A stretch of DNA of 64,000 bases from an uncultured beta proteobacterium (GTDB taxonomy: Bacteria > Pseudomonadota > Gammaproteobacteria > Burkholderiales > Burkholderiaceae_C), in NCBI GenBank assembly GCA_903909815.1, contig CAIVXG010000082.1, positions 1 to 64,000 of the forward strand. Reading direction: 5' to 3'. Under the pieces are notes generated by a model. It saw nothing but the letters and a program-made list of their open reading frames with translations. It was not told the DNA's origin and searched no databases. The position numbers and the translations under genes were made by a program. This document shows positions 15,756 through 64,000 of the stretch, piece after piece; positions within the stretch are counted from its first letter, which is position 1, and the number at the start of each line of letters is the position of its first letter.

Positions 15756-15831
15756 GGGAGTCATTTGGAAAACGGTTGGCACGCCGTGCACGGCCGGCTT
15801 GAAATTTGGCCCTGCAGGCCAGGTAATTGCG

Positions 15832-16200: not shown

Positions 16201-16244
16201 GGTGTTTGTCCAGAGGCTGTGGAAAAGGGCAGATTGTAGAGGGC

Positions 16245-16619
16245 TCACCAGTGGCCCGTTTCGACCCGAATCGCGACCTCGCAATCATCAAATATTTCCA
16301 ACTTGACGATCTTCACCCGCACGCCGAGCACGCCCGGCAACTGCATCAGGCGCGCGCTGAGCTTGCCGATCAGACTCTCCAGCAGGTTCATGTGCTCGGA
16401 CGTGCATTCGGTGATGATGATCTGGCGCACCTTGCGGTAGTCGAGCACGTGGTGGATCTCGTCGTCGCGCGGCAGCAGCGCCTGCGTGCCCAGGTTCAGT
16501 TCGGCGTCAACCTGAATCGGCTGCGGCGCATTGCGCTCCTGCTCCAGGATGCCCAGGCTCGCGTTGAAACGCAGGCCCGTGAGCGTGAGGATTTGCTGAC
16601 CTGATGCGAGAGAGTTCAT
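16245..16619 (-). CDS. Dihydroneopterin aldolase family protein (second copy)
   Basis: The 124-residue protein has the FolB/FolX T-fold: LTGLRFNASLGILEQERNAP, DYRKVRQIIITECTSEHMNL and LESLIGKLSARLM. The conserved glutamate and a C-terminal lysine region (VRVKIVKLEIF) are kept. FolB converts dihydroneopterin to 6-hydroxymethyl-dihydropterin; FolX epimerises the triphosphate. It overlaps the preceding FolB paralogue by 4 nt, and the two differ strongly. One may have a specialised activity such as FolX. Confidence 0.88.
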   Translation of the reverse strand: MNSLASGQQILTLTGLRFNASLGILEQERNAPQPIQVDAELNLGTQALLPRDDEIHHVLDYRKVRQIIITECTSEHMNLLESLIGKLSARLMQLPGVLGVRVKIVKLEIFDDCEVAIRVETGHW

Positions 16620-17026
16620 GCGGCGCTCCCTGGCGATATTGATGGCGCCTTGTATCGAAAAACCTCCACGCCCACAGCCTCACAGTCCTCATACACGTCG
16701 GGCTTGCGTGTCGATACGCGTGCCGCGACGACCTGGGGATGACTCAGCAGCGCGTCCAGCAACTCGTCGCACAGTGTCTCCTGCAAGGCGATGTGCCCCC
16801 GTGCCACCAGTTGCGACACCTCGCTACGCACGAAGTCGTAATCCACCACCTCCTCAAGCTGGTCGCGGCGCGGTGACGTGGCTGCCAGTGGCACGTACAG
16901 GTCGATGTCAAAAATGATGGTCTGGGGCGCAGCCCGTTCGAAATCGTGGATTCCGATGCTGACCTTGCGCGTCAGACTGCGAAGGAAGATCCGCCTGCAG
17001 TCGACCAGGGGCGTTGGGATTGTCAT
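16616..17026 (-). CDS. folB: Dihydroneopterin aldolase FolB
   Basis: The 136-residue protein shows the FolB pattern: IFLRSLTRKVSIGIHDFERA, VDYDFVRSEVSQLV, LQETLCDELLDALLSHPQVV and a C-terminal lysine in VSTRKPDVYEDCEAVGVEVF. GIHDFE matches the GI-D-E signature of true aldolases better than the downstream copy does. It overlaps its neighbours on both sides by 4 nt (SDR gene and second FolB), so the three genes are a translationally coupled pterin/folate operon. Confidence 0.9.
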   Translation of the reverse strand: MTIPTPLVDCRRIFLRSLTRKVSIGIHDFERAAPQTIIFDIDLYVPLAATSPRRDQLEEVVDYDFVRSEVSQLVARGHIALQETLCDELLDALLSHPQVVAARVSTRKPDVYEDCEAVGVEVFRYKAPSISPGSAA

Positions 17027-17826
17027 ATCTGTGACCTTGTCAGTTGCTCGACCACGAACATCACGTCGCGCTCCAGCGGCACCAGGTGCTGACCCTTGTC
17101 AACACACAGCGTCGTGCCCGTGATGGAGGCGTTCTCCGCCAGAAAGACGGCGCTGCGCGCCACGTCGCCGACGTCGATCGGGCTGCGCATGAGGTTCAGG
17201 GATTGGGCCCGCTCGAAATTGTCGACGCTCTGGGGCCCGCTCACAAAGACCAGGCCGGGTGCAATCGCTGTCACGCGTACATGCGGCGCCAAGGCCTGCG
17301 CCTGCAAGGCGACCGAGCGCTCCAGCGCGAGCTTGGACACGGTGTAGGAAAAATAATCGGGGTTGAGGTTGTAAACCTTCTGATCCAGGACGTGAATCAG
17401 CGCCGGCGCCGGCTCGCCACTCCGACTCTTGGCATACTGCGCCAGCAGGCTTCCCAGATGCAGCGGCGCCACCAGGTTGACCTGAAGTTGCAGCTGCAAC
17501 AACTCGGAGGAAAAAGCGATGCCGCTGTCAGGCTCGAACACGGAGGCGTTGTTGACGACGGCATCCAGGCCCTGGTCAGCGGCCTGGATGGCAGATTGAA
17601 GCAGGGATTCCCGCTCAGTCGCGACGCTCAGATCGGCACCCAGGGAGACGGCATGGCCTCCTTGCTGGTGAATTTCACCGCAGATTTGATCGGCCTCCTG
17701 TGCCGAAGACTGATAGTGACAAATCACGTTCCATCCGGCCTGAGCGAACGCCAGGCAAAACGCCCGTCCGAGACGTTTGGCGCCGCCGGTGACAAGCACG
17801 GTTCGGGTTCTCACAGATTTGGACAT
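17023..17826 (-). CDS. SDR oxidoreductase, FolM/pteridine reductase-like
   Basis: The 267-residue short-chain dehydrogenase has the cofactor motif TGGAKRLGRA near residue 14 and NNAS near residue 95. The catalytic tyrosine and lysine are in YFSYTVSKLALE. The TGGAKRLG signature and the operon with two FolB proteins point to the FolM/PTR1 group, which reduces dihydromonapterin or dihydrofolate with NADPH. The start MSKSVRTRTV at 17826 is preferred over 17874, which would overlap the divergent gene. Confidence 0.85.
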   Translation of the reverse strand: MSKSVRTRTVLVTGGAKRLGRAFCLAFAQAGWNVICHYQSSAQEADQICGEIHQQGGHAVSLGADLSVATERESLLQSAIQAADQGLDAVVNNASVFEPDSGIAFSSELLQLQLQVNLVAPLHLGSLLAQYAKSRSGEPAPALIHVLDQKVYNLNPDYFSYTVSKLALERSVALQAQALAPHVRVTAIAPGLVFVSGPQSVDNFERAQSLNLMRSPIDVGDVARSAVFLAENASITGTTLCVDKGQHLVPLERDVMFVVEQLTRSQI

Positions 17827-17843
17827 TCGGGGACAATCGGCGG

Positions 17844-19004
17844 GTGAATACAACAAGCCACAGTTTAACGACACCCTCCACGCCCATGGCGACGCACATC
17901 CACCAGCTCATCGCAGCGGAGGGCGGCTGGATCGCCTTTGACCGCTTCATGGAACTGGCGCTGTACACGCCGGGCCTGGGCTATTACGCCAATGATTCAC
18001 GCAAATTCGGCCACATGCCCTCCAGCGGCAGCGACTTCGTGACCGCGCCCGAGATGACCCCGCTGTTCGGACGCGCCGTGGCGGTGCAGCTGGCGCAGGC
18101 CCTGCAGGTGACCCAGACGGACGAGGTGTGGGAGTTCGGCGCGGGCTCGGGCGCGCTGGCGCAGCAGCTGCTTGACGCACTTGGCGACTCGGTGCAGCGC
18201 TACACCATCGTCGAACTCTCGGCCACACTGCGCGCACGCCAGCAACAGCGCCTGCTGCCCTGGGCGCACAAAGTGCGCTGGGTCAATGCCCTGCCCGACA
18301 CCATGCAGGGCGTGGTGCTGGGCAACGAGCTGCTGGACGCCATGCCGGTGAAGCTGCTCGCGCGCGCGCAGGGCCGCTGGCACGAGCGCGGCGTCGTCAG
18401 CGGCGCCGACGGCGGCTTCGTCTGGCAGGATCGACTCACCGAGCTTCGCCCCCCCGACGACATTGGCGGAACGAACGACTACCTCACCGAAATCCATCCC
18501 CAGGCCGAAGCCTTCATGCGCACCCTGGTGGATCGTCTCATGGCCAGCGACAAGGGCGGCGCAGCGTTCTTTATCGACTATGGTTTCCCTCAGGCCGAGT
18601 ACTACCACCCGCAGCGCCACATGGGCACGGTGATGTGCCACCGCGCACACCAATCCGATGACGATCCGCTGGCCGAGGTTGGACTCAAGGACATCACCGC
18701 GCATGTGAACTTCACCGCCATGGCAATGACGGCGCAACAGGCGGGGGACGATTTTCTGGCGACCGCCACCGCCCCCAACGCCAAGTCGGTGGGCACCCTG
18801 GGCTACTGCACGCAGGCGCGCTTTTTGATGAATTGCGGCCTGCTCACGGCCCTGGCATGCGCCAGCCTGCCCGAGCGCGCCATGGGCCTGAAGCTGGTGG
18901 CCGAGCACGAGATGGGCGAGCTGTTCAAAGTGCTGGGGGTGTACGTGGGCGCGCCCTGGGATGCGCTGGGTTTTGCGCAGGGAGACCGCACGCACACGCT
19001 GTGA
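17844..19004 (+). CDS. MidA/NDUFAF7-type SAM-dependent methyltransferase
   Basis: The protein of about 386 residues belongs to COG1565. It has FMELALYTPGLGYYANDSRK, DFVTAPEMTPLFGRAVA, the SAM motif WEFGAGSGALA, LGNELLDAMPVKLL and FFIDYGFPQAEYYHP. The mitochondrial relative NDUFAF7 methylates an arginine of complex I subunit NDUFS2; bacterial targets are less clear. The GTG at 17844 is taken as the start, with ATG 17886 as alternative. The start is only 17 nt from the divergent SDR gene. Confidence 0.88.
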   Translation: MNTTSHSLTTPSTPMATHIHQLIAAEGGWIAFDRFMELALYTPGLGYYANDSRKFGHMPSSGSDFVTAPEMTPLFGRAVAVQLAQALQVTQTDEVWEFGAGSGALAQQLLDALGDSVQRYTIVELSATLRARQQQRLLPWAHKVRWVNALPDTMQGVVLGNELLDAMPVKLLARAQGRWHERGVVSGADGGFVWQDRLTELRPPDDIGGTNDYLTEIHPQAEAFMRTLVDRLMASDKGGAAFFIDYGFPQAEYYHPQRHMGTVMCHRAHQSDDDPLAEVGLKDITAHVNFTAMAMTAQQAGDDFLATATAPNAKSVGTLGYCTQARFLMNCGLLTALACASLPERAMGLKLVAEHEMGELFKVLGVYVGAPWDALGFAQGDRTHTL

Positions 19005-47749: not shown

Positions 47750-49213
47750 TCAGAAAGGTGCATCGCGATCCACCCACTCCTGTGCCTTGCGGTCCATCAA
47801 GGCTTCAAACGGCAGCGATTGTTTCACCAAAATGACCGTGCAGGGCGCATCCATCGCCACCTTGATCGGCACCGTGGCCACAAAACGCTGCATCTGCACG
47901 CCATGCGTGGCTGCACCCATCACGATCATGCTGACGTCGTTGCCCTCAGCGTAGCGCACCAAGGCCTGCGCCACGTCGCCCGACTCCAGCACGTGAAAGG
48001 AAGTCTGGTGATTGGCCAAATTCAGGGGCTGCGCCCACTCATGCAGCATCGTCAGGTAGCGCCGGTGTACCCGAGTTTCACTGTTCTCGTTGCTGGAGGC
48101 GCTGGTCTGCCCCGGCGAAATCACGGTCACGCAAGCCAGGCGCGCGCCGGGGCGCAGGCCCAGGGAACGGGCCACGGCCTGACGCAGCGAATAAAGTGTG
48201 GCGTCGGTCACATCCTTGTGCGGCACGGCCACCATCACGATCGGCACGTCGTCGGCCTGCTGCGATGGAATTGGGCTGGGCTGATATTGCCTGCCCGCCG
48301 CCCTCAGCCAGCGCTTGAAGTGGGTCCAAAATCCGGTGCCTTGCAGCCTGCGGCCACGCTCGGTCACCTTGACCTGTTCGGGATACGTCAGGTCGAACGC
48401 GAGGTGCGCGGCCGACGGGTAGCGGTCTTTGGCCTCGGGTTCCAGACAGCGCAGCAACACCTCCTGCAGCCACTCCGGCAGATCGGGTCGCAACACGCGC
48501 GGCGGCTGCGGGTCCATCCACAGCCGCTGGCGCAGTCCGCCGTCGGTTTGCGGCGTGCCAAAAGGCGTCTTGCCCGTGGCCAGCTCATACAGCATCACGC
48601 CCAGGGCGAACACGTCGCTGCGCGGATCGCCGCGAACCCCTACCACCTGCTCGGGCGAAATCCAGGTCGGCGAACCGACGGCCTTGCGCAGTTGTTCCGC
48701 CAGCAAGTCGGGGTAATGGGCGTGGCATGACAGGCCGAAGTCCAGCAGCACTGCGCTGCCGTCGGGCCGAAACAGAACGTTCGCCGGCTTCAAGTCCAGA
48801 TGCACCGCGTTCTGCTTGTGCAAGCTGTGCACGGCATGCGCCATGGCGGCACCGAGCTGCGCTATCGTCTCGACCGAATGCGGCTCGCCTTGCTCAAGCC
48901 AGTGGTCCAGCGTGTGCCCCGGCACATATTCCATCACCAGATAGGGCACATTTGACAGGTCGCCGGCGGCCACAAATCGGGGCACATGCACTCCCGTCAG
49001 GACCTGCATGATCTGGTGCTCCACCTCGAAGCTAACGATGTTCTCCGCGCCGTCGCCCGGGGTCATGCGCGGCACCTTCATGACCATGGGAAAGCCCGGG
49101 TCGCGCCTACCGTCGGCGTAATGCACGCGATAGATGTGCGCCATGCCGCCCGAGTGCAGGCACTCCTCGATCACAAATCCGTCCAGTACTTCTTCGGGCT
49201 GCAGCAGCTTCAA
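47750..49213 (-). CDS. Serine/threonine kinase fused to a UspA-like domain
   Basis: The 487-residue protein has an N-terminal Hanks-type kinase domain: Lys46 in MVMKVP, HLDLKPANV with catalytic Asp140, DFG with Asp158, and the APE-like SPEQVVG. After a linker near residues 300-325 comes a universal stress protein-like domain (about 325-475) with VIVMVAVPHK-type strands and IVMGAATHGVQMQRF. The final GS of the USP ATP motif is replaced by AT in VATVPIKV, so nucleotide binding may be lost. No membrane span is seen. It overlaps the phosphoesterase stop (ATGA), so a kinase-phosphatase pair is likely. Confidence 0.88.
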   Translation of the reverse strand: MKLLQPEEVLDGFVIEECLHSGGMAHIYRVHYADGRRDPGFPMVMKVPRMTPGDGAENIVSFEVEHQIMQVLTGVHVPRFVAAGDLSNVPYLVMEYVPGHTLDHWLEQGEPHSVETIAQLGAAMAHAVHSLHKQNAVHLDLKPANVLFRPDGSAVLLDFGLSCHAHYPDLLAEQLRKAVGSPTWISPEQVVGVRGDPRSDVFALGVMLYELATGKTPFGTPQTDGGLRQRLWMDPQPPRVLRPDLPEWLQEVLLRCLEPEAKDRYPSAAHLAFDLTYPEQVKVTERGRRLQGTGFWTHFKRWLRAAGRQYQPSPIPSQQADDVPIVMVAVPHKDVTDATLYSLRQAVARSLGLRPGARLACVTVISPGQTSASSNENSETRVHRRYLTMLHEWAQPLNLANHQTSFHVLESGDVAQALVRYAEGNDVSMIVMGAATHGVQMQRFVATVPIKVAMDAPCTVILVKQSLPFEALMDRKAQEWVDRDAPF

Positions 49214-49962
49214 CGTCCATCCTCCAGTCGTTTGGCAAAAAACTCCGGCAAACCGGCGGCCCGGATGGCCGCGGCCGCGCCTTGGTGGTCATAGGCGATG
49301 CGGTGAAAAGTCAGCTGCGCGGCGGTGGTGTCGAACAGCGCATACATGGCCCTGGGATTGCCATCGCGAGGCTGGCCCACCGAGCCCACGGTCGCAATCC
49401 AGTGGCGATGGCGCGGCGTTGGCACCGCCACACCCGGCGTGGGCTTGAAGGCCATCAAACCACGCCCGACGCTGCGGTAGTAAAGCGTTTGCCTGTGCAC
49501 GTGGCCGCCGAAAACGAAACGCACGCCCGGCAGCGCCACCGCGGCGTCGAGACTGGCGCCAGCGCTGCGCTCATCTTCCACGTAGCGCCACTTCTCGGGA
49601 TCGTCTGCGCTGGCGTGCACCAACAGCAGGTCTTCGAGCCGCGCCGTCAGCGGCAGCCCCACCAGAAATCGCTTTTGCTCCAGACTCAACTGGGCGTGGG
49701 TCCACAGGGCGGTCATCTCCCCCATGGCCTTGCTTTCATTGGGAGGGAACGCCGCCAGCGCGTCGTGATTCCCCTGCAGCACGATGGCGCCATCCTGCGC
49801 CAGTTCCATGACCTTGCTCAGCACCTGCGCGGGCTCCGCGCCATAGCCGACCAGATCGCCCAACAAGGCAAAGCCCTGGGCACCCTGATCGCGCGCATGC
49901 TCCAGGCACGCATCGAGCGCACCCAGATTGGCGTGGACGTCGGACAGCAAAGCCAGTTTCAT
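49210..49962 (-). CDS. Metallophosphoesterase, PPP-like
   Basis: The 250-residue protein has the calcineurin-like motifs SDVHANLGAL, GDLVGYG, GNHDAL and FGGHVHRQ in order. It resembles bacterial ApaH/PrpE-like phosphatases and may reverse the phosphorylation made by the adjacent kinase, with which it overlaps by 4 nt. The substrate is inferred only from context. Confidence 0.88.
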   Translation of the reverse strand: MKLALLSDVHANLGALDACLEHARDQGAQGFALLGDLVGYGAEPAQVLSKVMELAQDGAIVLQGNHDALAAFPPNESKAMGEMTALWTHAQLSLEQKRFLVGLPLTARLEDLLLVHASADDPEKWRYVEDERSAGASLDAAVALPGVRFVFGGHVHRQTLYYRSVGRGLMAFKPTPGVAVPTPRHRHWIATVGSVGQPRDGNPRAMYALFDTTAAQLTFHRIAYDHQGAAAAIRAAGLPEFFAKRLEDGR

Positions 49963-53000: not shown

Positions 53001-54727
53001 ACCACATTCAACGTACCACCCTCGCCATGCTGCTGGCCCTGCTGGCCACTGGCGGCGCCTACGCTGCCGGCGCCGACCTGGGCCAGGCTGCCAAGCAGGC
53101 AACCAACTGGACCGCCATCTCGATGTTCGGCGGCTTTGTCGTGCTCACGCTGTGGATCACGAAATGGGCTGCGGCCAAGACCAAGAGCGCGGCCGATTTC
53201 TATACGGCTGGCGGCGGCATCACGGGCTTCCAGAACGGCCTGGCGATCGCCGGCGACTACATGTCAGCGGCGTCCTTTTTGGGGATTTCCGCTGCCGTCA
53301 TGGCCACCGGCTACGACGGCCTGATCTACTCAATCGGCTTTCTCGTGGGCTGGCCCGTCATCACCTTCCTCATGGCAGAGCGCCTGCGCAACCTGGGCAA
53401 GTTCACCTTTGCCGACGTCGCCGGCTACCGCTTTTCGCAAACGCCCATTCGCGCCTTCGCTGCCTCCGGCACGCTGGTGGTGGTGGCGTTCTACCTGATC
53501 GCCCAGATGGTGGGCGCAGGTCAGCTGATCAAGCTGCTGTTCGGCCTGGAATACTGGATGGCGGTTGTGATCGTGGGCGCGCTCATGATGGTGTACGTGC
53601 TTTTTGGCGGCATGACCGCCACCACCTGGGTGCAGATCATCAAGGCCTGCATGCTGCTCGCGGGCGTGACCTTCATGGCCTTCATGGTGCTGGCGCAATT
53701 CCACTTCAGCCCGGAAGCGCTGTTTGCCGCAGGTGTGAAAGTGCGCACGGATATCGCCAGCAATTCGGGCAAGACAGCGCAGGAGGCCGCCACGCTCGGT
53801 TTGTCCATCATGGGGCCAGGAGGTTTTGTGAAGGACCCGATCTCGGCGATCTCGTTCGGGATGGCGCTGATGTTCGGCACGGCCGGCCTGCCGCACATCC
53901 TGATGCGCTTTTTCACCGTTCCCAACGCCAAGGAAGCGCGCAAGTCGGTGTTCTGGGCGACCACCTGGATCGGCTACTTTTACGTGCTGATCTTCATCAT
54001 CGGCTTTGGCGCCATCACCCTGGTGCTGACCAATCCCGAGATGTCGGACGTGGCCAAGGGCATCATCAAGGGCGGTGCGGGAACGGCCAACATGGCTGCG
54101 GTGCTGGTCGCAAAGACCGTGGGCGGCGACGTCTTCTACGGCTTCATCTCGGCCGTGGCCTTCGCCACGATTCTGGCTGTGGTTGCGGGCCTGACCCTCT
54201 CTGGCGCCTCGGCCGTGTCGCACGACTTGTACGCCACGGTGTTCAAGAAGGGCAATGCCGACAGCGCCTCCGAGTTGAAGGTCTCGCGCTACACCACCGT
54301 GGCTCTGGGCATCGTAGCCGTGGCGCTGGGCATTGTGTTCGAAAAGCAGAACATCGCCTTCATGGTGTCGCTGGCGTTCGCGATCGCGGCCTCGGCCAAC
54401 TTCCCGGTGCTGTTCATGTCGGTACTGTGGAAAGACTGCACCACCAAGGGCGCTGTCATTGGCGGCTTCCTGGGGCTGATCTCTTCCGTGGGCCTGACCA
54501 TCGTCTCGCCCTCGGTCTGGGAAGCCACGCTCGGCTACCCCAAGGGATCGGCATGGTTCCCTTACACCTCGCCTGCGCTGTTCTCGATGACCATCGGCTT
54601 CGTCGGCATCTGGTTGTTCTCGGTGCTGGACCGCAGTCCGGCTGCTGCCAAGGAACGTGAAGCCTTTGCCGCGCAAAAGGTGCGCTCGGAAACTGGCTAT
54701 GGCGCCACCGGCGCATCCGGCCACTGA
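52997..54727 (+). CDS. actP: Cation/acetate symporter
   Basis: The 576-residue protein belongs to the sodium:solute symporter family: [40 protein letters not shown] and a 13-span pattern. The DUF485 gene directly before it supports acetate uptake. It begins with a signal-like N-terminus ([20 protein letters not shown]). A strong terminator follows at 54757. Confidence 0.94.
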
Positions 54728-54756
54728 GCATCCCATCGGGCGCTTGCGCCTGTGTG

Positions 54757-54784
54757 AAAACCGGGCTTTGGCCTGGTTTTTTTT
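54757..54784 (+). terminator. Intrinsic terminator after actP
   Basis: AAAACCGGGC and GCCTGGTTTT pair, with one G-U step, around TTTG, and the stem runs into TTTTTTTT. It lies 30 nt behind the actP stop. Confidence 0.88.
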
Positions 54785-54988
54785 CGGCTGTTGCCGGTGG
54801 CAATCGTGGCGTCGTTGCCTTGACTGCAGCACCCGATACCGGGTCCGCCGCCAAGGTCTCCCAGCGCCAAAGCGCGCCTGTCATGTAAGCAAGGTCATAC
54901 TCAGCACGACCCATGCGGGAGGTCGACGTCAAAGATCATGCGCTCCTGCGGATCTGGTCGGACATACTCCATACAGGAAGACGCGAAA

Positions 54989-56365
54989 ATGGCTGAATTC
55001 AAGTATCAATTTTTTGTCGTCGGCGGCGGCTCCGGCGGTGTGCGTGCCGCCCGCATCGCGGCCGGTCACGGGGCCCGCGTAGCGATTGCAGAGGGCTATC
55101 GCTATGGCGGCACCTGCGTGATTCGCGGCTGCGTGCCGAAGAAGCTGTTGGTTTACGCCGCGCACTTTTCCGAAGACTTTGCCGATGCTCAAGGCTTTGG
55201 CTGGAGCGTGCCGCCGGCAAGCTTTTCCTGGCCGCACTTGATCGCCGCCAAGAACCAGGAGATTGCGCGGCTGAGCGAACTCTACGAAAGCAATCTGCGC
55301 CGCTCCGGCGTCGAGGTGCTGCACGGCGCTGCGCGCATCGTGGACGCGCATACGGTCGAGGTGAACGGCCAGCGCTTCAGCGCCGAGCACATCCTGATCG
55401 CCACCGGCGGCAGGCCCTTTTTACCTTCGATTCCTGGCATCGAGCACGCGCTCACGTCGAATGAAATGTTCGACCTGCCACAGTTGCCCCAGCGTGTGCT
55501 GATCGTTGGCGGCGGCTACATCGCAGTCGAGTTTGCCGGCATCCTGAAGGGCCTGGGTGCACAGCTCACGCTGTGCTATCGCGGCGAGAAATTGCTGCGC
55601 GGCTTCGACGACGATGTGCGCCAGCATCTGCACGAGGAAATGACGAAGAAGGACATTCGCATCCTGCTCCAGAGCGATATCGTGCGCATCGACCGCCTGG
55701 GCTCGGGTGAACTGCAGGTCGAAATCTCCGGCAAGGCTCCGGGGTCGAAGTTGTTCGACACGGTGCTGTATGCCACCGGCCGCACCCCCAACACCGAGGG
55801 CCTGGGGTTGACGCACGCCGGCGTCGCAGTGGACACCGCGGGCGGGGTACAGGTCGACGCGTATGGTCGCACCAATGTTCCCAGCATTCACGCCGTAGGC
55901 GATGTCACGAACCGCATTGCGCTCACGCCGGTGGCGATCCGCGAGGGCGCAGCCGTGGCCGACACGCTGTTCGGACCCGGCCCGACCGTGGCCGATCTGA
56001 GCGTGGTTCCGTCCGCGGTCTTCAGCCAGCCGCCGATTGGCACGGTGGGTTTTAGCGAAGCCGAGGCGCTGAAGCGTTATGAAGCTATCGACATCTATCG
56101 CGCCAACTTTCGCTCGCTACGCCAGGCCCTGTCGGGGCGCGACGAGCGCACCCTCATCAAACTGATCGTGGACCACGCCAGCCAGCGCGTCTTGGGCGCA
56201 CACATGGTGGGCGCGGATGCACCCGAGATCATTCAGGGTCTGGCCATCGCCATCCGCATGGGCGCCACCAAGGCGGATTTCGACGCCACCGTAGCCCTTC
56301 ACCCCACCAGCGCGGAAGAATTTGTGACCCTGCGCGAAAAGACCACGCGCACAAGACATGACTGA
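54989..56365 (+). CDS. gor: Glutathione-disulfide reductase
   Basis: The 458-residue flavoprotein has the FAD motif VVGGGSGGVRAARIAA and the redox pair Cys43-Cys48 in GGTCVIRGCVPKK. The NADPH motif VGGGYIAVEFAGIL is followed by basic residues (YRGEKLLRGFD), and the C-terminal LHPTSAEEFVT carries the catalytic histidine. It regenerates reduced glutathione. An AGGAAG ribosome binding site precedes ATG 54989. Its end overlaps egtD by 8 nt, tying glutathione and ergothioneine genes together. Confidence 0.95.
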   Translation: MAEFKYQFFVVGGGSGGVRAARIAAGHGARVAIAEGYRYGGTCVIRGCVPKKLLVYAAHFSEDFADAQGFGWSVPPASFSWPHLIAAKNQEIARLSELYESNLRRSGVEVLHGAARIVDAHTVEVNGQRFSAEHILIATGGRPFLPSIPGIEHALTSNEMFDLPQLPQRVLIVGGGYIAVEFAGILKGLGAQLTLCYRGEKLLRGFDDDVRQHLHEEMTKKDIRILLQSDIVRIDRLGSGELQVEISGKAPGSKLFDTVLYATGRTPNTEGLGLTHAGVAVDTAGGVQVDAYGRTNVPSIHAVGDVTNRIALTPVAIREGAAVADTLFGPGPTVADLSVVPSAVFSQPPIGTVGFSEAEALKRYEAIDIYRANFRSLRQALSGRDERTLIKLIVDHASQRVLGAHMVGADAPEIIQGLAIAIRMGATKADFDATVALHPTSAEEFVTLREKTTRTRHD

Positions 56366-57284
56366 ATCCCCTTTGAGCCCCGTGCAGGAAATTGTGCAAG
56401 GCCTGCTCCAGGCTACGGCCCGCATTGCACCCAAGTATTTCTACGACGCCGCGGGTTCTGCGCTGTTCGAGGACATCACGCGTCTGCCCGAGTACTACCC
56501 GACGCGCACCGAACGCCAGATCATGGCGGCGCACGGCGCCGACATCGCGCGACGCCTGGGGCCCGGCGCGAGCGTGATTGAGCTGGGTGCGGGCAGTTGC
56601 GAGAAGGCGCGTGAACTTTGCCAGTTGATTGCACCTTCGCACTTTGTTGCGGTCGATATTTCCTCCGAGTTCCTGCACGATGCCGTGGCGCAGCTGCGCG
56701 TGGCGCTCCCGGGTGTGGAGGTGCGCGCCCTCGCCGCCGATCTCACAACCGACTTCACGCTGCCGCAGGACCTGCCGCGACAGCGTCGGCTGGTGTTCTA
56801 CCCGGGCTCCTCCATAGGCAACTTCGACCCGGCGCAGGCGCTGCAACTGCTCGCGCGCATGCGTGGCCTGATCGAAGATGACGGTGCGCTGCTGATTGGT
56901 GTCGATCTGACAAAGGAAGTGGCCGTGCTCGAAGCCGCTTACGACGACGCAGCCGGCGTGACGGCGGCGTTCAATTTGAACGTTCTGCGCCACATCAATC
57001 GCCTCATCGACAGCGATTTCGACCTGAGCCAGTGGCGCCATTGCGCCTTCTTCAATGCCACCGACTCGCGCATCGAAATGCATCTGCAAGCCTGCGTCGA
57101 AACGGTCGTGCGCTGGCCTGGTGGTGAACGTGGCTTTGCCAAAGGCGAACGCATTCACACCGAAAACAGCTACAAATACCGGATGGAAGATTTCGTCCAA
57201 CTATTGAACCAGGCCGGTTTTGCACAAACCGAGGTCTGGAGCGACGATCGCTCGTGGTTCGCGCTGTTTCTGGCACGACCCTGA
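56358..57284 (+). CDS. egtD: L-histidine N-alpha-methyltransferase EgtD
   Basis: The 308-residue protein has the EgtD blocks PKYFYDAAGSALFEDITRLP, EYYPTRTERQIMAAHGADIA, VIELGAGSCEKA and FYPGSSIGNFDP. The C-terminal part is AFFNATDSRIEMHLQACVET and IHTENSYKYRMEDFVQLLNQ. It trimethylates histidine to hercynine with SAM. It is followed after 19 nt by egtB. Confidence 0.96.
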   Translation: MTESPLSPVQEIVQGLLQATARIAPKYFYDAAGSALFEDITRLPEYYPTRTERQIMAAHGADIARRLGPGASVIELGAGSCEKARELCQLIAPSHFVAVDISSEFLHDAVAQLRVALPGVEVRALAADLTTDFTLPQDLPRQRRLVFYPGSSIGNFDPAQALQLLARMRGLIEDDGALLIGVDLTKEVAVLEAAYDDAAGVTAAFNLNVLRHINRLIDSDFDLSQWRHCAFFNATDSRIEMHLQACVETVVRWPGGERGFAKGERIHTENSYKYRMEDFVQLLNQAGFAQTEVWSDDRSWFALFLARP

Positions 57285-57303
57285 ACACACCCGGAGCACC
57301 CTC

Positions 57304-58476
57304 ATGAGCCCATCCGAACTCAGCCAGCGCTTCCGATCCGTGCGTGCCTACACGACAACGCTGGCCGCCCCCCTGTCGACCGAGGATTGCTGCGTGCAGT
57401 CCATGCCGGATGCGAGTCCGACCAAGTGGCATCTGGCGCACACAACGTGGTTCTTCGAGACCTTCGTGCTGGAGCGCTGGGAGCACGGTTTCTTGCCCTT
57501 CGATCCCGCGTTTCGCGTGCTCTTCAACTCCTACTACAACGCCGTCGGCGAGAAGCACCCGCGGGCACAAAGAGGCTTGCTCACGCGCCCCGGACTGGAC
57601 CAGGTTCGGGCCTACCGCGCCGACGTCGATGCGCGCATGCAAGCCCTGTTTGAGTCCTCATCGGAACCGGAACTGCTGGCGCTGGTGGAGCTGGGTTTGC
57701 AGCACGAGCAACAACACCAGGAGCTGCTGCTCACCGACCTCCTGCATCTGTTTTCGCGCAACCCGCTGCTGCCCGCGTACCAGGCGCAAACGCCAGTGGC
57801 GCGACCCGCGCCGAGCTTGCGCTGGCACCGATTCGCCGGCGACCTGACCGAGATCGGCCACAGTGGCGAAGGCTTTGGCTTCGACAACGAACTGCCCCGG
57901 CACAGCGTCTATCTGCAACCCTTCGAAATCGCGTCACGGCTTGTTACCAACGGCGAATATGCGTCCTTCATCGCCGCCGGCGGCTACGCGGATCCGGTGC
58001 ATTGGCTGGCCGAGGGCTGGGACTGGTGCATGGCACAGGGGCGCGCGCAGCCGCTGTATTGGCGCGGAGAAGGGCTCGCCTGGCAGGAGTTCACGCTCGG
58101 CGGCCTGTTGGCGCTGAACCCGGACGCACCCCTGACCCATGTGTCCTACTACGAGGCCGACGCCTTTGCGCGCTGGGCCAAGGCGCGACTGCCCACCGAA
58201 TCAGAATGGGAGCGCGCAGCAACCGCGGGCGCGCTGGACCAGTTGTTCAGCGACGCCTGGCAGTGGACCGCGTCGAGCTACGCCGCGTATCCGGGCTTTC
58301 GCGTCGGACCGGGTGCTGTGGGCGAGTACAACGGCAAGTTCATGGTAAACCAGTACGTGCTGCGCGGCGGCTCCAGCGCTACGTCGCCAGGCCACTCGCG
58401 CGCCAGCTATCGAAACTTCTTTCCCGCCGGCGCCTGCTGGCAGTTATCGGGCATCCGGCTGGCGCGGGACGCTTAA
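57304..58476 (+). CDS. egtB: Ergothioneine biosynthesis sulfoxide synthase EgtB
   Basis: The 390-residue protein has an N-terminal DinB-like domain with the iron ligand histidines His46 (HLAHTTWFF), His134 and His138 (HEQQHQE). A C-terminal FGE-sulfatase-type domain (WQWTASSYAAYPGFR, VNQYVLRGGSSATSPGHSRA) follows. It joins hercynine to a sulfur donor with oxygen. EgtA and EgtC genes are absent here, so cysteine or an external gamma-glutamylcysteine may be the donor; EgtE is also not seen. A GGAG ribosome binding site precedes ATG 57304. Confidence 0.94.
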   Translation: MSPSELSQRFRSVRAYTTTLAAPLSTEDCCVQSMPDASPTKWHLAHTTWFFETFVLERWEHGFLPFDPAFRVLFNSYYNAVGEKHPRAQRGLLTRPGLDQVRAYRADVDARMQALFESSSEPELLALVELGLQHEQQHQELLLTDLLHLFSRNPLLPAYQAQTPVARPAPSLRWHRFAGDLTEIGHSGEGFGFDNELPRHSVYLQPFEIASRLVTNGEYASFIAAGGYADPVHWLAEGWDWCMAQGRAQPLYWRGEGLAWQEFTLGGLLALNPDAPLTHVSYYEADAFARWAKARLPTESEWERAATAGALDQLFSDAWQWTASSYAAYPGFRVGPGAVGEYNGKFMVNQYVLRGGSSATSPGHSRASYRNFFPAGACWQLSGIRLARDA

Positions 58477-58769
58477 GAACCGGCTTCGTCAATGACCCGC
58501 ACGCCCTTCCAAAACGCTACGAAACCTGCGATGTTGGTGGCAGCCGGCTTCGTACTAGGGTAGTACCAGGCGGCGTCCTTGTTGGTCTTGCCTTCGACCA
58601 CCACGTCATAGTAGTTGGCTGTGCCCTTCCAGGGGCAAACGCTGTGCGTCGCGCTTGCCCGGAAGTAGCGCATGTCCAGCGCCTGCGGCGGAAAGTACTT
58701 GTTCCCCTCCACCGTCTCGTAACGCTCGGTTTGAGCGATGACGGTGTTGTTCCAGATGGCCTTGATCAT
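58473..58769 (-). CDS. DUF427 domain protein
   Basis: The 98-residue protein MIKAIWNNTVIAQTERYETV with GNKYFPPQALDMRYFRASAT, SVCPWKGTANYYDVVVEGK and AWYYPSTKPAATNIAGFVAF matches DUF427, a small tent-like beta fold of unknown function. It is convergent to egtB with a 4-nt overlap and lies in the same strand run as msrA. Confidence 0.92.
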   Translation of the reverse strand: MIKAIWNNTVIAQTERYETVEGNKYFPPQALDMRYFRASATHSVCPWKGTANYYDVVVEGKTNKDAAWYYPSTKPAATNIAGFVAFWKGVRVIDEAGS

Positions 58770-58832
58770 GACGATGTCCTCTCAAAATGGGTATGCCGCC
58801 TCAACGCAATGGTGGCCACGGGCCGACCGTTT

Positions 58833-59483
58833 TCAGTGACCTGCCTGTGCACCCCACAACTGCTGGAGGCGAGCGTCGCGCCCGCAACTTGCGCGGTAGT
58901 ACTTGTAGCGGATCGGGTTCTTCACGTGATAGTCTTGGTGATACGCTTCCGCCGGGTAGAAGGGGCCGGCCATCACGATCTCGGTGACGATGGAGTCCTT
59001 GAAGGGTTTGGACTTTTCCAGCGCCAGACGCGAGGCCTGGGCCGTCTTGAACTGCTCCGCGTCGTGCGCAAAGATGACGGTGCGGTAAGGCGATCCATGA
59101 TCGCAGAATTGCTGGTCCTTGACGGTCGGGTCGATGCTGCGCCAGAAGTACTCGACCAGCCGCTGGTAACTCACTTTGGAAGGATCGTAAACCACCTGCA
59201 CCGCCTCTGCATGGCCCGTGGTATGGGATGACACTTGTTCATAGCTCGGGTTGACCGTACGGCCGCCGGTGTAGCCGGCGGTGGTGGAGATCACGCCCGG
59301 CAGCTTCTCGAAATCGGACTGCACGCACCAGAAGCAGCCACCCGCGAAGGCGGCCTTGGCAGATGCTGCGCCTGTGGCGATGTTGGCGGCGCCGGTCTGG
59401 GCATTCGACAGCGCCGACAAACCGAGCAGAATGCAGGCGAATGCGCTGCGTAGAAAACCCTGAAACCCATTTATCCTGTTCAT
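58833..59483 (-). CDS. msrA: Peptide-methionine (S)-S-oxide reductase MsrA, exported
   Basis: The 216-residue precursor has a signal peptide (FLRSAFACILLGLSALSNAQ) and the MsrA active site FAGGCFWC at Cys50. The family core GYTGGRTVNPSYEQVSSHTTG and PFYPAEAYHQDYHVKN follows. It repairs methionine sulfoxide in the periplasm. The start MNRINGF at 59483 is preferred over 59567. A 39-residue frame lies 7 nt upstream. Confidence 0.94.
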   Translation of the reverse strand: MNRINGFQGFLRSAFACILLGLSALSNAQTGAANIATGAASAKAAFAGGCFWCVQSDFEKLPGVISTTAGYTGGRTVNPSYEQVSSHTTGHAEAVQVVYDPSKVSYQRLVEYFWRSIDPTVKDQQFCDHGSPYRTVIFAHDAEQFKTAQASRLALEKSKPFKDSIVTEIVMAGPFYPAEAYHQDYHVKNPIRYKYYRASCGRDARLQQLWGAQAGH

Positions 59484-59490
59484 GCTGCAC

Positions 59491-59610
59491 CTACGAATTT
59501 GAGCGCAACAGCAGTGCTGCAATGACTGACGGATCAGCAATGGTGGCGGCGTTTGTCTGGCGGACAAAGCCCACTGCGGCGAGCAGCGAAAAGAACAGGC
59601 GGCGTGTCAT
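59491..59610 (-). CDS. 39-residue signal-peptide-like ORF upstream of msrA
   Basis: The frame reads MTRRLFFSLLAAVGFVRQTN followed by AATIADPSVIAALLLRSNS and TAG. It has a ribosome binding site AAAGGGG eight bases before the ATG and ends 7 nt before the msrA start. The N-terminus looks like a secretion signal with an AxA-like site near NAA, but almost no mature protein follows. It may be a truncated exported Msr-type gene, a leader peptide or chance. Confidence 0.4.
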   Translation of the reverse strand: MTRRLFFSLLAAVGFVRQTNAATIADPSVIAALLLRSNS

Positions 59611-59792
59611 GGTGGAACCCCTTTGTGTTGACTGGTGCCTACTTGGTCGTCGCATGGGGTGAAACCTTTCACTTCTGCCGCCGTCCTGATCGTGTTTCCG
59701 AGCCCATCCGGCAACGACGAAAAATTCTTCAGCCGCACTGTAAGGTTTCAGCGGTTGGCCCGTCTAATGGGCGACAACACCTACTCGAACCC

Positions 59793-60791
59793 ATGCACGC
59801 CACACTTCCCTTCCTGACCCAGACCGACTTTCCCGTGCTGCGCCGCGGCATCGTCGACACCCTTCAGATCAACCTGGGTTACCGCTGCAACCAGAGCTGC
59901 ACCCACTGCCACGTGAACGCGGGACCGAACCGGACCGAGGAGATGTCCAGTGACACCATCGCCGCCGTGATCGCGTTTCTGGCGGCCAGCGCGGATGTGA
60001 GAACGCTGGACCTGACCGGTGGCGCACCCGAACTCAATCCGCATTTCCGCACCCTTGTCGTCGCCGCCCGCTCCCGCGGTGTGCGCGTCATCGACCGCTG
60101 CAACCTCACCATTCTGGAAGAGCCGGGACACGAAGATCTGGCCGAGTTCCTGGCGGCACACGGCGTTGAGGTCGTCGCGTCCCTGCCCTGTTACCAGGAA
60201 GACAACGTGGATCGCCAGCGCGGCAAGGGCACGTTTGACGCCAGCATCCGCGGTCTGCAGCGCCTGAACGCGCTCGGCTATGCCCGCCCCGGTTCGGGCC
60301 TTGTCCTGAACCTTGTCTACAACCCTCAGGGGCCCAGCCTGCCGCCACCCCAGCAGGCGCTGGAGCGCGACTACAAGCAGCATCTGGCCCAGCATTTCGG
60401 AGTCGCCTTCGATCAGCTGTTCACGCTGGCCAACATGCCGATTCAGCGCTTTGGCTCGATGCTGGTGTCCAAGGGTCAGTTTCACTGCTACATGGAACTT
60501 CTTCGCAGCGCGCACCAGCCGAGCAATCTGGGCCAGGTGATGTGCCGCAGCACGCTGAGCGTCGATTGGCAGGGTTATCTGTTCGATTGCGATTTCAACC
60601 AGCAATTGGGTTTGCCGTTGAGCTTGGGTCGGCGCACCCGCAGCCACATCAGCGAGATCGTTGCCGACTCGCTGGAAGACCTGCCGATTCGCGTCGCCGA
60701 TCACTGTTTCGGCTGCACCGCGGGCCAGGGTTCGAGCTGCGGCGGTGCACTGGGTTCCGCCACGGCACCTGCACCGAGTTGCAGCAATTGA
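59793..60791 (+). CDS. arsS: Radical SAM protein ArsS (arsenosugar biosynthesis type)
   Basis: The 332-residue protein has the radical SAM motif CNQSCTHCH (Cys32, Cys36, Cys39), DLTGGAPELNPHFRTLV and VIDRCNLTILEEPGHEDLAEF. The C-terminal cysteine block is HCFGCTAGQGSSCGG. It belongs to the ArsS/rSAM-SeCys group; ArsS adds a 5'-deoxyadenosyl group to dimethylarsinite in arsenosugar synthesis. Some relatives carry selenocysteine near the C-terminus; here the sites are cysteines. No ArsM is nearby. The start ATG lacks a good ribosome binding site. Confidence 0.9.
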   Translation: MHATLPFLTQTDFPVLRRGIVDTLQINLGYRCNQSCTHCHVNAGPNRTEEMSSDTIAAVIAFLAASADVRTLDLTGGAPELNPHFRTLVVAARSRGVRVIDRCNLTILEEPGHEDLAEFLAAHGVEVVASLPCYQEDNVDRQRGKGTFDASIRGLQRLNALGYARPGSGLVLNLVYNPQGPSLPPPQQALERDYKQHLAQHFGVAFDQLFTLANMPIQRFGSMLVSKGQFHCYMELLRSAHQPSNLGQVMCRSTLSVDWQGYLFDCDFNQQLGLPLSLGRRTRSHISEIVADSLEDLPIRVADHCFGCTAGQGSSCGGALGSATAPAPSCSN

Positions 60792-60824
60792 CGCTGCGCC
60801 GTCCATTTCAACGGAGACCTGTGC

Positions 60825-62222
60825 ATGGGTGAATTTCAAGGACTGTTTTTCTGGGGCTTTCTGATCGTCTTCGGTGTCGTGATGTACCTTGTCGCGCCCC
60901 GTTCCATGGACGAAGCCGGCTTCTTTCGCGGTCACGATGAGCGCGGTCGTCCGGCTTCTGAATGGGCCCTGATGATGAGCATCTTCATCAGCTGGATCTT
61001 CGCCAAATCCGTGACCAATGCCGCAAATTTGGGGGCCAGCTACGGCGTCGTCGGCGGCCTGGCCTACGCCAGTTACTGGCTGTCGATCCCGGTGGCGGGC
61101 TTCGTCATCTATCGGCTGCGAACGCGCCAGGGTGCGACCGGCATGGTGCCGTTTCTGATACAAAAATATGGGCGTGGCGCGGCCATGGCGTTTTCGGTGG
61201 CGATTCTGATTCGCTTGTTCAACGAAGTCTGGAGCAACACTGCCGTGGTCGGCGGCTACTACGGCGCCAGTGGCTCCGCTGGCTTCATTGGTGGCGCGCT
61301 GCTGTTCACGGCGGCCGTGCTGTTCTACAGCCTCAAGGGTGGCCTGCGCAGCTCCATCTTCAGCGACGTGATCCAGGCCGTGGTGTTCATCCTTTTCCTC
61401 GGTCTGGTGTTGGCCTATGTGCTGCCCTCTGACACACCCCAGGCGCTGCTAGCGCAGGGAGCGTTCGCACTCGATTCGGGAGCCGACCTGCTGTTGGTGG
61501 CTTTGCTGCAGTCACTGTCCTACCCGTTCCACGACCCGGTGCTCACGGACCGCGGCTTCATCACGCCGGAGAAGACGATGCTGCGCGCCTTCATCGTCGC
61601 CGGTGTGCTCGGCTTCGTCGCGATCTTCGCCTTCAGCCTGGTCGGCGTGCACGCCAAGCTGCACGGCATCGTGGCCAACGGCAACGTGCCGGCCGCCGTG
61701 GCGCGGGGCCTGGGCTTCGCGGGCTTCTTCGCCATGATCGTGGTGATGGTGACCTCGGCCGGCTCCACGCTGGACTCGACCTTCACCTCGCTCTCCAAAT
61801 TGGTGGCGCGCGAGCTGCCGCTGCTCGCCGGTCGCCTGCCTTCGCCCAAGGCGATGACGGTGGGATCGCTCACGATGGTGAGCTTCGCGCTGCTGGGAAA
61901 TCTACCCATGGTGGCGGGCACCGACATGCTCAAGGCCACCACCATCAGCGGCACGATGGTGATTGGCCTGGCGCCGATCTTCTTGTTCTCTGGGCGCGTG
62001 CGCTATTCGCCGGCATCGTTCCACCTGGCCTTCTGGACCGGCGTGGCGCTGGGCCTGATGGAAGCGCTGGGCGGGGTGCCGCACAGCTGGACTGTCGGAA
62101 CCGGCAAGTACGGCGCGCTGCTGGGCGTCAATTGCTACGGCCTGATGCTGTGCAGCGCCGGTTTCTTCTTGCCGCTACTGCTGCAACGCGAGCGCAGCGC
62201 CGGTGCGGCCGTGACAGCGTGA
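60825..62222 (+). CDS. Sodium:solute symporter family protein
   Basis: The 465-residue membrane protein starts MGEFQGLFFWGFLIVFGVVM and has about 12 spans. SSS-type segments such as SYPFHDPVLTDRGFITPEKT and VMVTSAGSTLDSTFTSLSKL are clear. A GGAG ribosome binding site precedes the ATG. It follows arsS by 33 nt and its stop overlaps the next gene (GTGA), so the run is one operon. The substrate is unknown; context suggests a product or precursor of the ArsS step, which is inference. Confidence 0.86.
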   Translation: MGEFQGLFFWGFLIVFGVVMYLVAPRSMDEAGFFRGHDERGRPASEWALMMSIFISWIFAKSVTNAANLGASYGVVGGLAYASYWLSIPVAGFVIYRLRTRQGATGMVPFLIQKYGRGAAMAFSVAILIRLFNEVWSNTAVVGGYYGASGSAGFIGGALLFTAAVLFYSLKGGLRSSIFSDVIQAVVFILFLGLVLAYVLPSDTPQALLAQGAFALDSGADLLLVALLQSLSYPFHDPVLTDRGFITPEKTMLRAFIVAGVLGFVAIFAFSLVGVHAKLHGIVANGNVPAAVARGLGFAGFFAMIVVMVTSAGSTLDSTFTSLSKLVARELPLLAGRLPSPKAMTVGSLTMVSFALLGNLPMVAGTDMLKATTISGTMVIGLAPIFLFSGRVRYSPASFHLAFWTGVALGLMEALGGVPHSWTVGTGKYGALLGVNCYGLMLCSAGFFLPLLLQRERSAGAAVTA

Positions 62223-63184
62223 AGGCCGCTCCCGGCGCGGGCCGCGTCTGTCCGCTGCACTACCGCTACTGCGCAGCCGCTATCGCAACGACGCCCGAAC
62301 GCGAAACGCCCACGCTGTATGTGATCGGCGGGCTGTACGGAAACCTGCAGGCGCTGGACACGATTGAAGCGATGGCCGCGGCTGAGCGCGTGGCGCCGCG
62401 CCTTTGTTTCAACGGCGACTTCAACTGGTTCAACGTGGCCGATGCCAACTTCGAGCAGGTGAATCAAAGGGTGCTGGCGCACGACGCAATTCTTGGGAAC
62501 GTCGAGGCCGAGTTCGGCTCCGCGGCTGATGACGCGGGCTGCGGCTGCGCCTATCCCGACGCCGTGGATTCGGGCACGGTGGACCGCTCCAATGAGATCC
62601 ATCGGCAGCTCAAGGCCACGGCACTGCGTCATCCCGAGATTCTGAAAAAAGCCTCGGGCCTGTCCATGATCAAGCGCTACCGCGTGGGCCGCTGCCGCGT
62701 CGGTGTGGTGCACGGCGACGCCGAGTCGCTGGCCGGTTGGCGCTTTGACGTGAACGCGCTCGACGACACCGCGGCGCTGCCCTGGCTCAGGTCCGCGTTT
62801 GCCGACGCCGAGGTGGATCTTTTCGCCAGCACCCACACTTGCCTTCCCGCCGTGCGCCGCTTTGCGTTGGCGTCGGCGACAGACGGCGGGACCGGATGCG
62901 TGGTGAACAACGGCGCCGCCGGCATGCCCAACTTCAGCGGCGACCTGTCGGGCCTGATCACACGCGTGGCGACGACCCCGTCGCCACACGAGACGGTGTG
63001 CGAAGCTCAGCTTGGCGACGCTTATGTGGCCTTGCTGCCGGTGCGCTTCAATGTCGAGCGCTGGCAGGCTGAATTTTTGGCGCAATGGCCACGGCAGTCT
63101 TCTGCCTGGATTTCTTATTACCCGCGAATTTCGCAAGGGCCAAGCTACAGCCCGGCGCGCGCTGCCATGAAGGAGGACGTGTGA
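62219..63184 (+). CDS. Metallophosphoesterase-like protein
   Basis: The 321-residue protein has LYVIGGLYGNLQAL at the position of the DxH motif, FNGDFNWFNV like GDxxD, ILGNVEAEF like GNHE, GVVHGDAES near residue 160, and FASTHTCLPAV near residue 205. The first aspartate and the GNH histidine are replaced, so it is either a divergent or an altered calcineurin-like enzyme. The start is GTG 62219. The run with the symporter and the oxidoreductase is tight, with 4-nt and 1-nt overlaps. Confidence 0.7.
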   Translation: MKAAPGAGRVCPLHYRYCAAAIATTPERETPTLYVIGGLYGNLQALDTIEAMAAAERVAPRLCFNGDFNWFNVADANFEQVNQRVLAHDAILGNVEAEFGSAADDAGCGCAYPDAVDSGTVDRSNEIHRQLKATALRHPEILKKASGLSMIKRYRVGRCRVGVVHGDAESLAGWRFDVNALDDTAALPWLRSAFADAEVDLFASTHTCLPAVRRFALASATDGGTGCVVNNGAAGMPNFSGDLSGLITRVATTPSPHETVCEAQLGDAYVALLPVRFNVERWQAEFLAQWPRQSSAWISYYPRISQGPSYSPARAAMKEDV

Positions 63185-64000
63185 TGCGAGTCGATAAACG
63201 GGGGTGGGTGCTGGTGGTACTGTTCGCTCTGGTTGTGCTGTTCTACATCTTCAACCTGGGACAGTACCTGAACCTGGCAACGATCAAGACGCGTCAGCAA
63301 GAACTGGAGGCGTGGCGGGCGGTGCAGCCGCTTCTGGCCGGCACGTTGTTCTTTCTGGCCTACGTCACGGTATCCGCGCTTTCGCTGCCGGGGGCGACGG
63401 TCATGACGCTGGCAGCGGGCGCTTTTTTCGGTCTGGGCTGGGGCACGCTGATCGTCTCGTTTGCGTCCAGCATCGGGGCCACGCTGGCCTTCCTGAGTGC
63501 GCGCTGGCTGCTGGGCGACTGGGTCAACGCCCGCTTCGGCGAGCGCATGACCGTGCTCAACGCCGGCATGGCCAAGGATGGCGGCTTCTATCTCTTCACA
63601 CTGCGGCTGGTGCCGGTGCTGCCTTTCTTCGCGATCAACCTCGCCCTGGGTCTGACCGCCATTCGCACCTGGACGTTCTACTGGGTGAGCCAGATCGGCA
63701 TGCTTGCCGCCACGCTGGTCTACGTGAACGCGGGCACGCAGCTGGCGCACATCGATTCTCTCTCCGGCATCGTCTCGCCCGGGCTCTTGGCTTCGCTCGT
63801 GCTGCTGGGTTGCTTTCCGCTGGTCGCGCGCAAACTGGTCGAAGGCATACAGGCGCGCAAGGTCTACGCGCCCTGGGAACGTCCACGGACCTTCGATCGC
63901 AATCTCGTCGTCATCGGTGGCGGCTCGGCCGGCCTCGTCACAGCCTATATCGCGGCTGCGGTCAAGGCCAAAGTCACCTTGGTCGAAAAACACCAGTTGG
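63184..64000 (+). CDS. VTT (TVP38/TMEM64) membrane domain fused to an FAD oxidoreductase, partial
   Basis: The frame starts MRVDKRGWVLVVLFALVVLF with one span. A VTT/DedA-like domain (SLPGATVMTLAAGAFFGLGW, FASSIGATLAFLSARWLLGD, LRLVPVLPFFAINLALGLTA) runs to about residue 225. Then begins a pyridine nucleotide-disulfide oxidoreductase domain with the FAD motif NLVVIGGGSAGLVTAYIAAA. The gene is cut at the window edge. Such VTT-oxidoreductase (mercuric reductase-like) fusions are seen with arsS-type genes in several bacteria. The start overlaps the previous stop by one base. Confidence 0.85.
   Translation, partial: MRVDKRGWVLVVLFALVVLFYIFNLGQYLNLATIKTRQQELEAWRAVQPLLAGTLFFLAYVTVSALSLPGATVMTLAAGAFFGLGWGTLIVSFASSIGATLAFLSARWLLGDWVNARFGERMTVLNAGMAKDGGFYLFTLRLVPVLPFFAINLALGLTAIRTWTFYWVSQIGMLAATLVYVNAGTQLAHIDSLSGIVSPGLLASLVLLGCFPLVARKLVEGIQARKVYAPWERPRTFDRNLVVIGGGSAGLVTAYIAAAVKAKVTLVEKHQL

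Follow-up and report, generated by a model that had tools for sequence, protein, structure and literature searches.

An arsS operon without arsM in an uncultured beta proteobacterium and a possible front end for importing a small oxyanion

On what does an ArsS enzyme act in a bacterium that has no recognisable ArsM? The question is raised by the end of a 64,000-nt stretch of DNA from an uncultured beta proteobacterium of the order Burkholderiales (the window hereafter, positions 1–64,000 of contig CAIVXG010000082.1). Four genes packed there on the plus strand encode the radical S-adenosylmethionine (SAM) enzyme ArsS, a sodium:solute symporter, a Cys-rich homologue of calcineurin-like phosphoesterases, and a VTT membrane domain fused to a flavin adenine dinucleotide (FAD) disulfide oxidoreductase with a CLNTGC motif (VTT-FAD). 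We read the operon that they open as an ArsS-centred cluster for the biosynthesis of organoarsenicals of the arsenosugar type, in an ArsM-less form that imports a small oxyanion, likely a methylated arsenical, and we give this reading a probability of roughly 45%. ArsS with arsenosugar-named partners is an already known kind of cluster; the new part is the front end, which consists of the import genes and the Cys-rich protein.

Under this proposal, the cell would not methylate its own arsenic but import a small oxyanion, most likely a methylated arsenical (dimethylarsinate, for example), by the symporter here and by an HtxB-like ATP-binding cassette (ABC) importer in relatives. The Cys-rich phosphoesterase-fold protein would bind or process the imported compound, possibly holding a trivalent form on its cysteines, and VTT-FAD would supply reduction at the membrane. 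ArsS would then add a 5'-deoxyadenosyl group, the TIGR04283 and TIGR04282 enzymes would build the sugar derivative, and the DUF3047 and TIGR03169 proteins would take part in further steps. If this is true, many bacteria of the order acquire methylated arsenic that other organisms have made and use it for larger molecules, such that arsenic methylation and arsenosugar synthesis are divided between organisms, and concrete importer and carrier genes can be named. A more specific version, which we regard as tentative and on balance doubtful, is that dedicated, interchangeable importers (the symporter or the HtxB-like ABC system) and a phosphoesterase-fold protein, one of whose metal sites has turned into a cysteine site for a trivalent arsenical, feed ArsS with methylated arsenic, or with some other small oxyanion of a group-15 element, in bacteria unable to methylate arsenic, the symporter form also serving a different radical SAM protein outside the order.

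The arsS operon and its missing ArsM

The whole operon consists of eight tightly packed plus-strand genes and extends beyond position 64,000 of the contig (Table 1). The initial annotation, made from the window's letters, was right about the four genes: coordinates, frames and families agree, as do the 33-nt gap between arsS and the symporter gene, the GTGA overlap and the TGATG junction of the phosphoesterase-like and VTT-FAD genes. As an operon, these are only half of the set, as two arsenosugar-named glycosyltransferases (TIGR04283 and TIGR04282, both above their cut-offs) lie just past the window end, and every downstream gene, including those for DUF3047 and TIGR03169, overlaps its predecessor. 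Because all four window genes have intact reading frames and close homologues of each adjoin arsS in other genomes (those of the symporter in the fewest), the four-gene set is not a product of chance. ArsS itself scores 455.5 bits against the curated equivalog cut-off of 300 for TIGR04167, and it carries a CX3CX2C radical SAM motif (C32, C36 and C39) along with C-terminal C305, C308 and C316, all six columns being Cys in more than 90% of 154 aligned sequences.

ArsS links arsenic to adenosine en route to arsenosugars. Arsenosugar biosynthesis by ArsM and ArsS has been described for SsArsM and SsArsS of Synechocystis (Xue et al. 2019, as cited in PMC8552651), and ArsS enzymology by Cheng et al. 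2021 (as cited in PMC12159101). The window operon resembles this system in having TIGR04167 together with TIGR04283 and TIGR04282. It differs in having no ArsM, and none recognisable in the genome, and in placing the symporter and Cys-rich phosphoesterase-like genes between arsS and VTT-FAD. The set is thus not wholly undescribed, since NCBIfam already names ArsS, TIGR04283 and TIGR04282 for arsenosugar biosynthesis. In the titles and abstract openings of a largely open-access literature, we found no ArsM-less ArsS cluster with these partners.

An arsM just beyond the window is ruled out: the operon runs to 68,534 with no arsM among its eight genes, in agreement with the initial annotation that none is nearby. 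Elsewhere in this 98.9% complete genome, the ArsM model NF008823 gives five hits of 19.7–49 bits against a cut-off of 263, none of them on the operon contig, and the arsenosugar-type ArsM model NF038099 gives nothing at E ≤ 1e-20. An arsenic-resistance locus is present on contig C46 (approximately 15,700–18,650), with an ArsA-like ATPase and two ArsC-like reductases, both read by eye, next to an Acr3 that scores above its cut-off (396.5 bits). We count Acr3 in favour of an arsenic reading of the operon.

In carrying arsS without a recognisable ArsM, this genome is typical of its order. We surveyed 250 genomes of the order, and for each family the best first-pass candidates were scored (e.g., nine per genome for the phosphoesterase-like family and ArsM), such that absences are not absolute. 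For ArsM we set a generous limit (NF008823 at E ≤ 1e-28, at least 108 bits), the curated cut-off being passed by just 9/250 genomes. On these terms arsS is found in 80 genomes and ArsM in 32, and ArsM is enriched with arsS (22/80 genomes with arsS versus 10/170 without), yet 58/80 arsS-bearing genomes have no recognisable ArsM. As a separate observation, ArsM matches with one in-frame TGA occur in genomes G182, G243, G083 (C34) and G010 (C20), and these are possibly selenoprotein ArsM genes.

Front-end genes across the order and beyond

The front-end genes are nearly confined to arsS-bearing genomes of the order (40/41 carriers of the phosphoesterase-like family, 7/7 of the symporter subfamily and 19/20 of the HtxB-like binding protein). 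The phosphoesterase-like family occurs in 40/80 genomes with arsS and 1/170 without (Fisher p 1e-22; all Fisher tests cover the 250-genome sample, and the co-occurrence p values ignore ancestry). In G242, the sole carrier without arsS, the gene lies on a contig of 6 kb with a fragment of VTT-FAD at its start, so arsS could be missing through assembly. The symporter subfamily (E ≤ 1e-40) is found in 7/80 genomes with arsS and 0/170 without, and in all seven it lies between arsS and the phosphoesterase-like gene. The HtxB-like binding protein, counted at ≥250 bits, is found in 19/80 and 1/170 genomes, respectively, 18 of these carriers having the phosphoesterase-like gene; six hits to its profile at 143–157 bits, among them the arsS-bearing G016 and G153, were not counted. 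Among the 41 phosphoesterase-bearing genomes, the symporter occurs in 7 and the HtxB-like protein in 18, never both (p 0.012). The genome of the window itself has no match to the HtxB-like protein at E ≤ 1e-40.

The surroundings of arsS give a corresponding picture. In 81 arsS loci (80 plus our own), VTT-FAD and TIGR04283 are each found in 45, TIGR04282 in 40 and the phosphoesterase-like gene in 34, and DUF547 (named by eye), DUF3047 and TIGR03169 also recur. This first set (L039–L118) was used for neighbourhood counts, profiles and the ArsS tree and not for Fisher tests. A second draw of 83 loci from the 80 arsS-bearing genomes, some of them common to both draws and some cut by contig ends, agrees with the first; four loci below the arsS score limit (L196–L199) were read separately. 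Unconserved neighbours around arsS, like an arsM just past position 64,000, would have refuted the initial annotation; the neighbours are conserved, and these counts support an ArsM-less system that has import genes of its own.

We observe four forms of the slot 3' of arsS: the symporter with the phosphoesterase-like gene, as in the window; a PhnD/HtxB-type ABC importer with the phosphoesterase-like gene; the phosphoesterase-like gene alone; and ArsM nearby. The third gene of the ABC importer is labelled from position and similarity only. Within the 83 loci, the phosphoesterase-like gene is present in 29 and ArsM in 11, and no locus has both (p 0.007). A PiT phosphate-type transporter is found in 7/11 ArsM loci and 0/72 others, which fits uptake of an arsenate-like anion at the former. 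Twelve loci have the phosphoesterase-like gene at a distance from arsS or on a different contig, and ABC importer genes adjoin it in 8 of them. By eye, the gap genes of seven phosphoesterase-like loci reveal no third common transporter. Other variants of the surroundings include a HAD type II hydrolase gene next to arsS in L052, L055, L059, L060 and L071, mostly Accumulibacter-type loci, and a similar HAD-type gene, seen by eye, between arsS and the phosphoesterase-like gene in L153 and L178. The same arsS surroundings appear on three contigs of Pseudogulbenkiania subflava DSM 22618 (L108, L109 and L112), which are either real copies or assembly duplication.

Outside the order, the pair of symporter and phosphoesterase-like gene is rare. 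A sample of 289 genomes of the phylum contains arsS in 114 and the phosphoesterase-like family in five, namely our own, G496, which has arsS, symporter and VTT-FAD in one locus, and three genomes of a single genus. One locus of that genus (L231) reads, in order, VTT-FAD, radical SAM, symporter, phosphoesterase-like, ectA, ectB and aspartate kinase, and the same radical SAM, symporter, phosphoesterase-like and VTT-FAD genes are found in L229 and L230. The radical SAM protein of L231, which stands in the place of arsS, is closest to the Rv1681 family (NF049973) at 98.7 bits, far under the cut-off of 380, and scores 37.9 bits against TIGR04167; a profile comparison links its type to ArsS over 231 columns (E 4e-8). 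As an Rv1681-like enzyme with a profile link to ArsS occupies the arsS position, the pair goes with radical SAM enzymes of the ArsS build and not strictly with ArsS.

A Cys-rich protein, its importers and the substrate of ArsS

The phosphoesterase-like protein of the window is predicted to have a calcineurin-like fold with changed metallophosphoesterase motifs and four invariant cysteines. The closest structure to its AlphaFold2 model (predicted local distance difference test score, pLDDT, 94.2) is SapH, an asymmetric Ap4A hydrolase (3qfn; Z 21.1, root-mean-square deviation 3.2, 238 aligned residues, 15% identity), and the PDB entries 3qfn, 3rqz and 1nnw all match at Z 20.6–21.1. The protein itself has no match to a Pfam or NCBIfam model at E ≤ 0.001. 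Metallophos_2 matches 30/51 family members at E ≤ 1 (best 1.4e-6), and a PDB sequence search with the family profile returns nothing at E ≤ 1.

Calcineurin-like enzymes hold a dinuclear metal site with the ligand set DxH, GD, GNH, H and GHxH, which is not completely present here. Across the 51 aligned members (of 52 references, L045 being omitted for a broken frame), the invariant residues are C11, C108, C110, C208, D67, N94, H165 and H206, and the same eight are kept, by eye, in four members from outside the order. The retained ligands are D67, N94, H165 and H206. Unlike SapH-type enzymes, the window protein has GxY for DxH, its loop 37–42 after the first strand reading GGLYGN with no Asp or His, and a single His in its last motif (THTC) where two are usual. 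An ordinary phosphoesterase encoded in the same window (49,210–49,962, minus strand) served as a comparator. A collinear profile alignment, weak at a probability of 0.6% and E 0.1, pairs GGLYGN with its SDVHAN and stops just short of C208, which would put this cysteine opposite the last His of GHVH. Presumably, the ligands of one metal site have been kept and those of the other lost, partly with Cys in their place. With these changes, the simple dephosphorylation step first proposed for the protein is doubtful. The proposal would offer a possible function for this family, of which two scanned members have no NCBIfam match and some have superfamily-level matches in Pfam.

What, then, might be imported? 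The symporter reaches 25.8 bits against TIGR00813 (cut-off 184), the best of its NCBIfam matches, all of which are weak, and it has no Pfam match, but its homologue in L231 passes PF00474 (37.9 versus 22.8 bits), from which it can be placed by homology as a divergent member of the sodium:solute symporter family. More can be said of the binding protein in relatives. Among solved structures, the HtxB-like family (17 sequences) is closest to HtxB (269 bits; PtxB 122 bits), and W52, R178 and D206 of HtxB are invariant in it. In this respect, it resembles the HtxB and PtxB importers of reduced phosphorus described in PMC5700983, where N128 and F158 close a third-oxygen site in HtxB. It differs from HtxB in that these two positions are Ser and His, as in PtxB, and in that its genes travel with arsS. 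The expected ligand is a small oxyanion that roughly matches phosphite, hypophosphite or methylphosphonate in size; by shape, the arsenic counterparts of these would be methylarsonate and dimethylarsinate, and sequence cannot decide among them. Arsenite binding by a PhnD-type protein through a conserved Cys was also considered and is ruled out, as the family has no invariant Cys. AioX is the known case of an arsenite-binding protein with a conserved cysteine.

A tree of 154 ArsS sequences allows the enzyme to be followed across locus types. On well-supported branches, the phosphoesterase label changes at least 11 times and the ArsM label at least 7 times, although the tree came from a fast procedure that gave long-branch warnings, and loci truncated at contig ends were scored as "other", which inflates the counts of changes. 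The median identity between the ArsM and phosphoesterase groups is 66%, compared with 65% and 68% within them, and no alignment position separates the two groups at 80%. The tree does not set the ArsS of ArsM-less loci apart, and a separate clade for them is rejected. Given the repeated label changes and the similar identities between and within groups, a single substrate has probably been retained by ArsS through repeated exchange of its supply genes.

Several observations weigh against import of a methylated arsenical by these genes. The sole solved relative found for the symporter is a choline transporter (PDB sequence search, E 0.0011), which says nothing in favour of an oxyanion, and the Ser and His retained at the third-oxygen site of the HtxB-like protein would fit XO3 anions no less well than dimethylarsinate. 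Neither transporter family is seen in 16/41 phosphoesterase-bearing genomes; in one of these, G114, the contig ends within the importer genes. ArsM is also present in 6/40 arsS-bearing genomes with the phosphoesterase-like gene versus 16/40 without it, a weak genome-wide anticorrelation (p 0.023). In the first set of loci, L048 and the nearly identical L049 (the latter from Roseateles puraquae) have ArsM, the phosphoesterase-like gene and a PhnD-type protein together. The three carriers of the single genus outside the order have no TIGR04167 match at E ≤ 1e-40. Finally, ArsM and the phosphoesterase-like gene are both absent from 24/80 genomes of the order with arsS, which suggests that ArsS can manage without either, and the phosphoesterase-like gene is missing from 112/114 arsS-bearing genomes of the phylum sample.

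The last two counts suit the strongest alternative, which we nonetheless find rather unlikely: that this is an ordinary arsenosugar cluster whose ArsS acts on methylated arsenic that gets into the cell with no dedicated importer, and that the symporter and phosphoesterase-like genes are a separate, co-inherited uptake system. What argues against such independence is that, in this order, the phosphoesterase-like family hardly occurs outside genomes with arsS, also where it is distant from arsS, and that two unrelated types of transporter replace one another next to it.

The binding protein leads to another reading, in which phosphite, hypophosphite or methylphosphonate is imported and ArsS homologues form a C–P bond. 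Its closeness to HtxB, the conserved HtxB residues together with the PtxB-like Ser and His, and the phosphoesterase fold of the partner protein speak for such a phosphorus substrate. We consider it improbable, as the ArsS proteins of ArsM-bearing and phosphoesterase-bearing loci are inseparable by sequence and TIGR04283 and TIGR04282 accompany both. The ArsM-less operon with its front end raises directly the question of whether ArsM-less ArsS enzymes act on arsenic or on phosphorus.

It is also quite improbable that a divergent arsenic methyltransferase elsewhere in the genome, beyond the reach of the models used, supplies ArsS. ArsM families are diverse and the five weak NF008823 hits would be candidates, but all fall below the gap that separates scores of 87.6 and 108 bits among the 80 arsS-bearing genomes, and NF038099 gave none above its cut-off. 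Handling of a selenium oxyanion or selenosugar, an option in the initial annotation, is very improbable, for it draws on family names alone (TIGR03169 as a domain N-terminal to SelD, TIGR04167 as having selenocysteine members), whereas the window ArsS has an ordinary reading frame whose last motif holds cysteines and, SelD not having been searched genome-wide, no other selenium-named gene lies in the operon. Overall, what the initial annotation observed is confirmed, and its interpretation is partly supported.

Operon genes and their neighbours

Table 1. Genes of the arsS operon on contig CAIVXG010000082.1, with model matches.
Gene	Position	Strand	Product	Matches and remarks
arsS	59793-60791	+	332 aa	radical SAM with C-terminal DUF3641 domain; TIGR04167, PF04055, PF12345
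divergent sodium:solute symporter	60825-62222	+	465 aa	TIGR00813 E 5e-6
Cys-rich calcineurin-like phosphoesterase homologue	62219-63184	+	321 aa	GTG start, inside GTGA overlap
VTT-FAD	63184-65334	+	716 aa	PF09335, PF07992, PF02852; window edge at 64000
TIGR04283 arsenosugar-named glycosyltransferase	65324-66046	+		263 bits, cut-off 182
TIGR04282 arsenosugar-named glycosyltransferase	66021-66689	+		205.9 bits, cut-off 134
DUF3047	66682-67422	+		PF11249 225.7 bits
TIGR03169 oxidoreductase	67419-68534	+		353.5 bits, cut-off 310

An Rfam scan of 54,000–64,000 gave no match. Facing the operon end, a methylthioadenosine phosphorylase gene lies at contig positions 68,581–69,498 on the minus strand. 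The family is found near arsS in 5/83 loci, the window locus included, and the enzyme could strip adenine from an ArsS product. Upstream (54,938–58,476), a glutathione reductase gene (TIGR01424) is followed by egtD-like and egtB-like genes of ergothioneine synthesis, named by eye, all of them 5' of DUF427-like and msrA-like genes and of the arsS operon.

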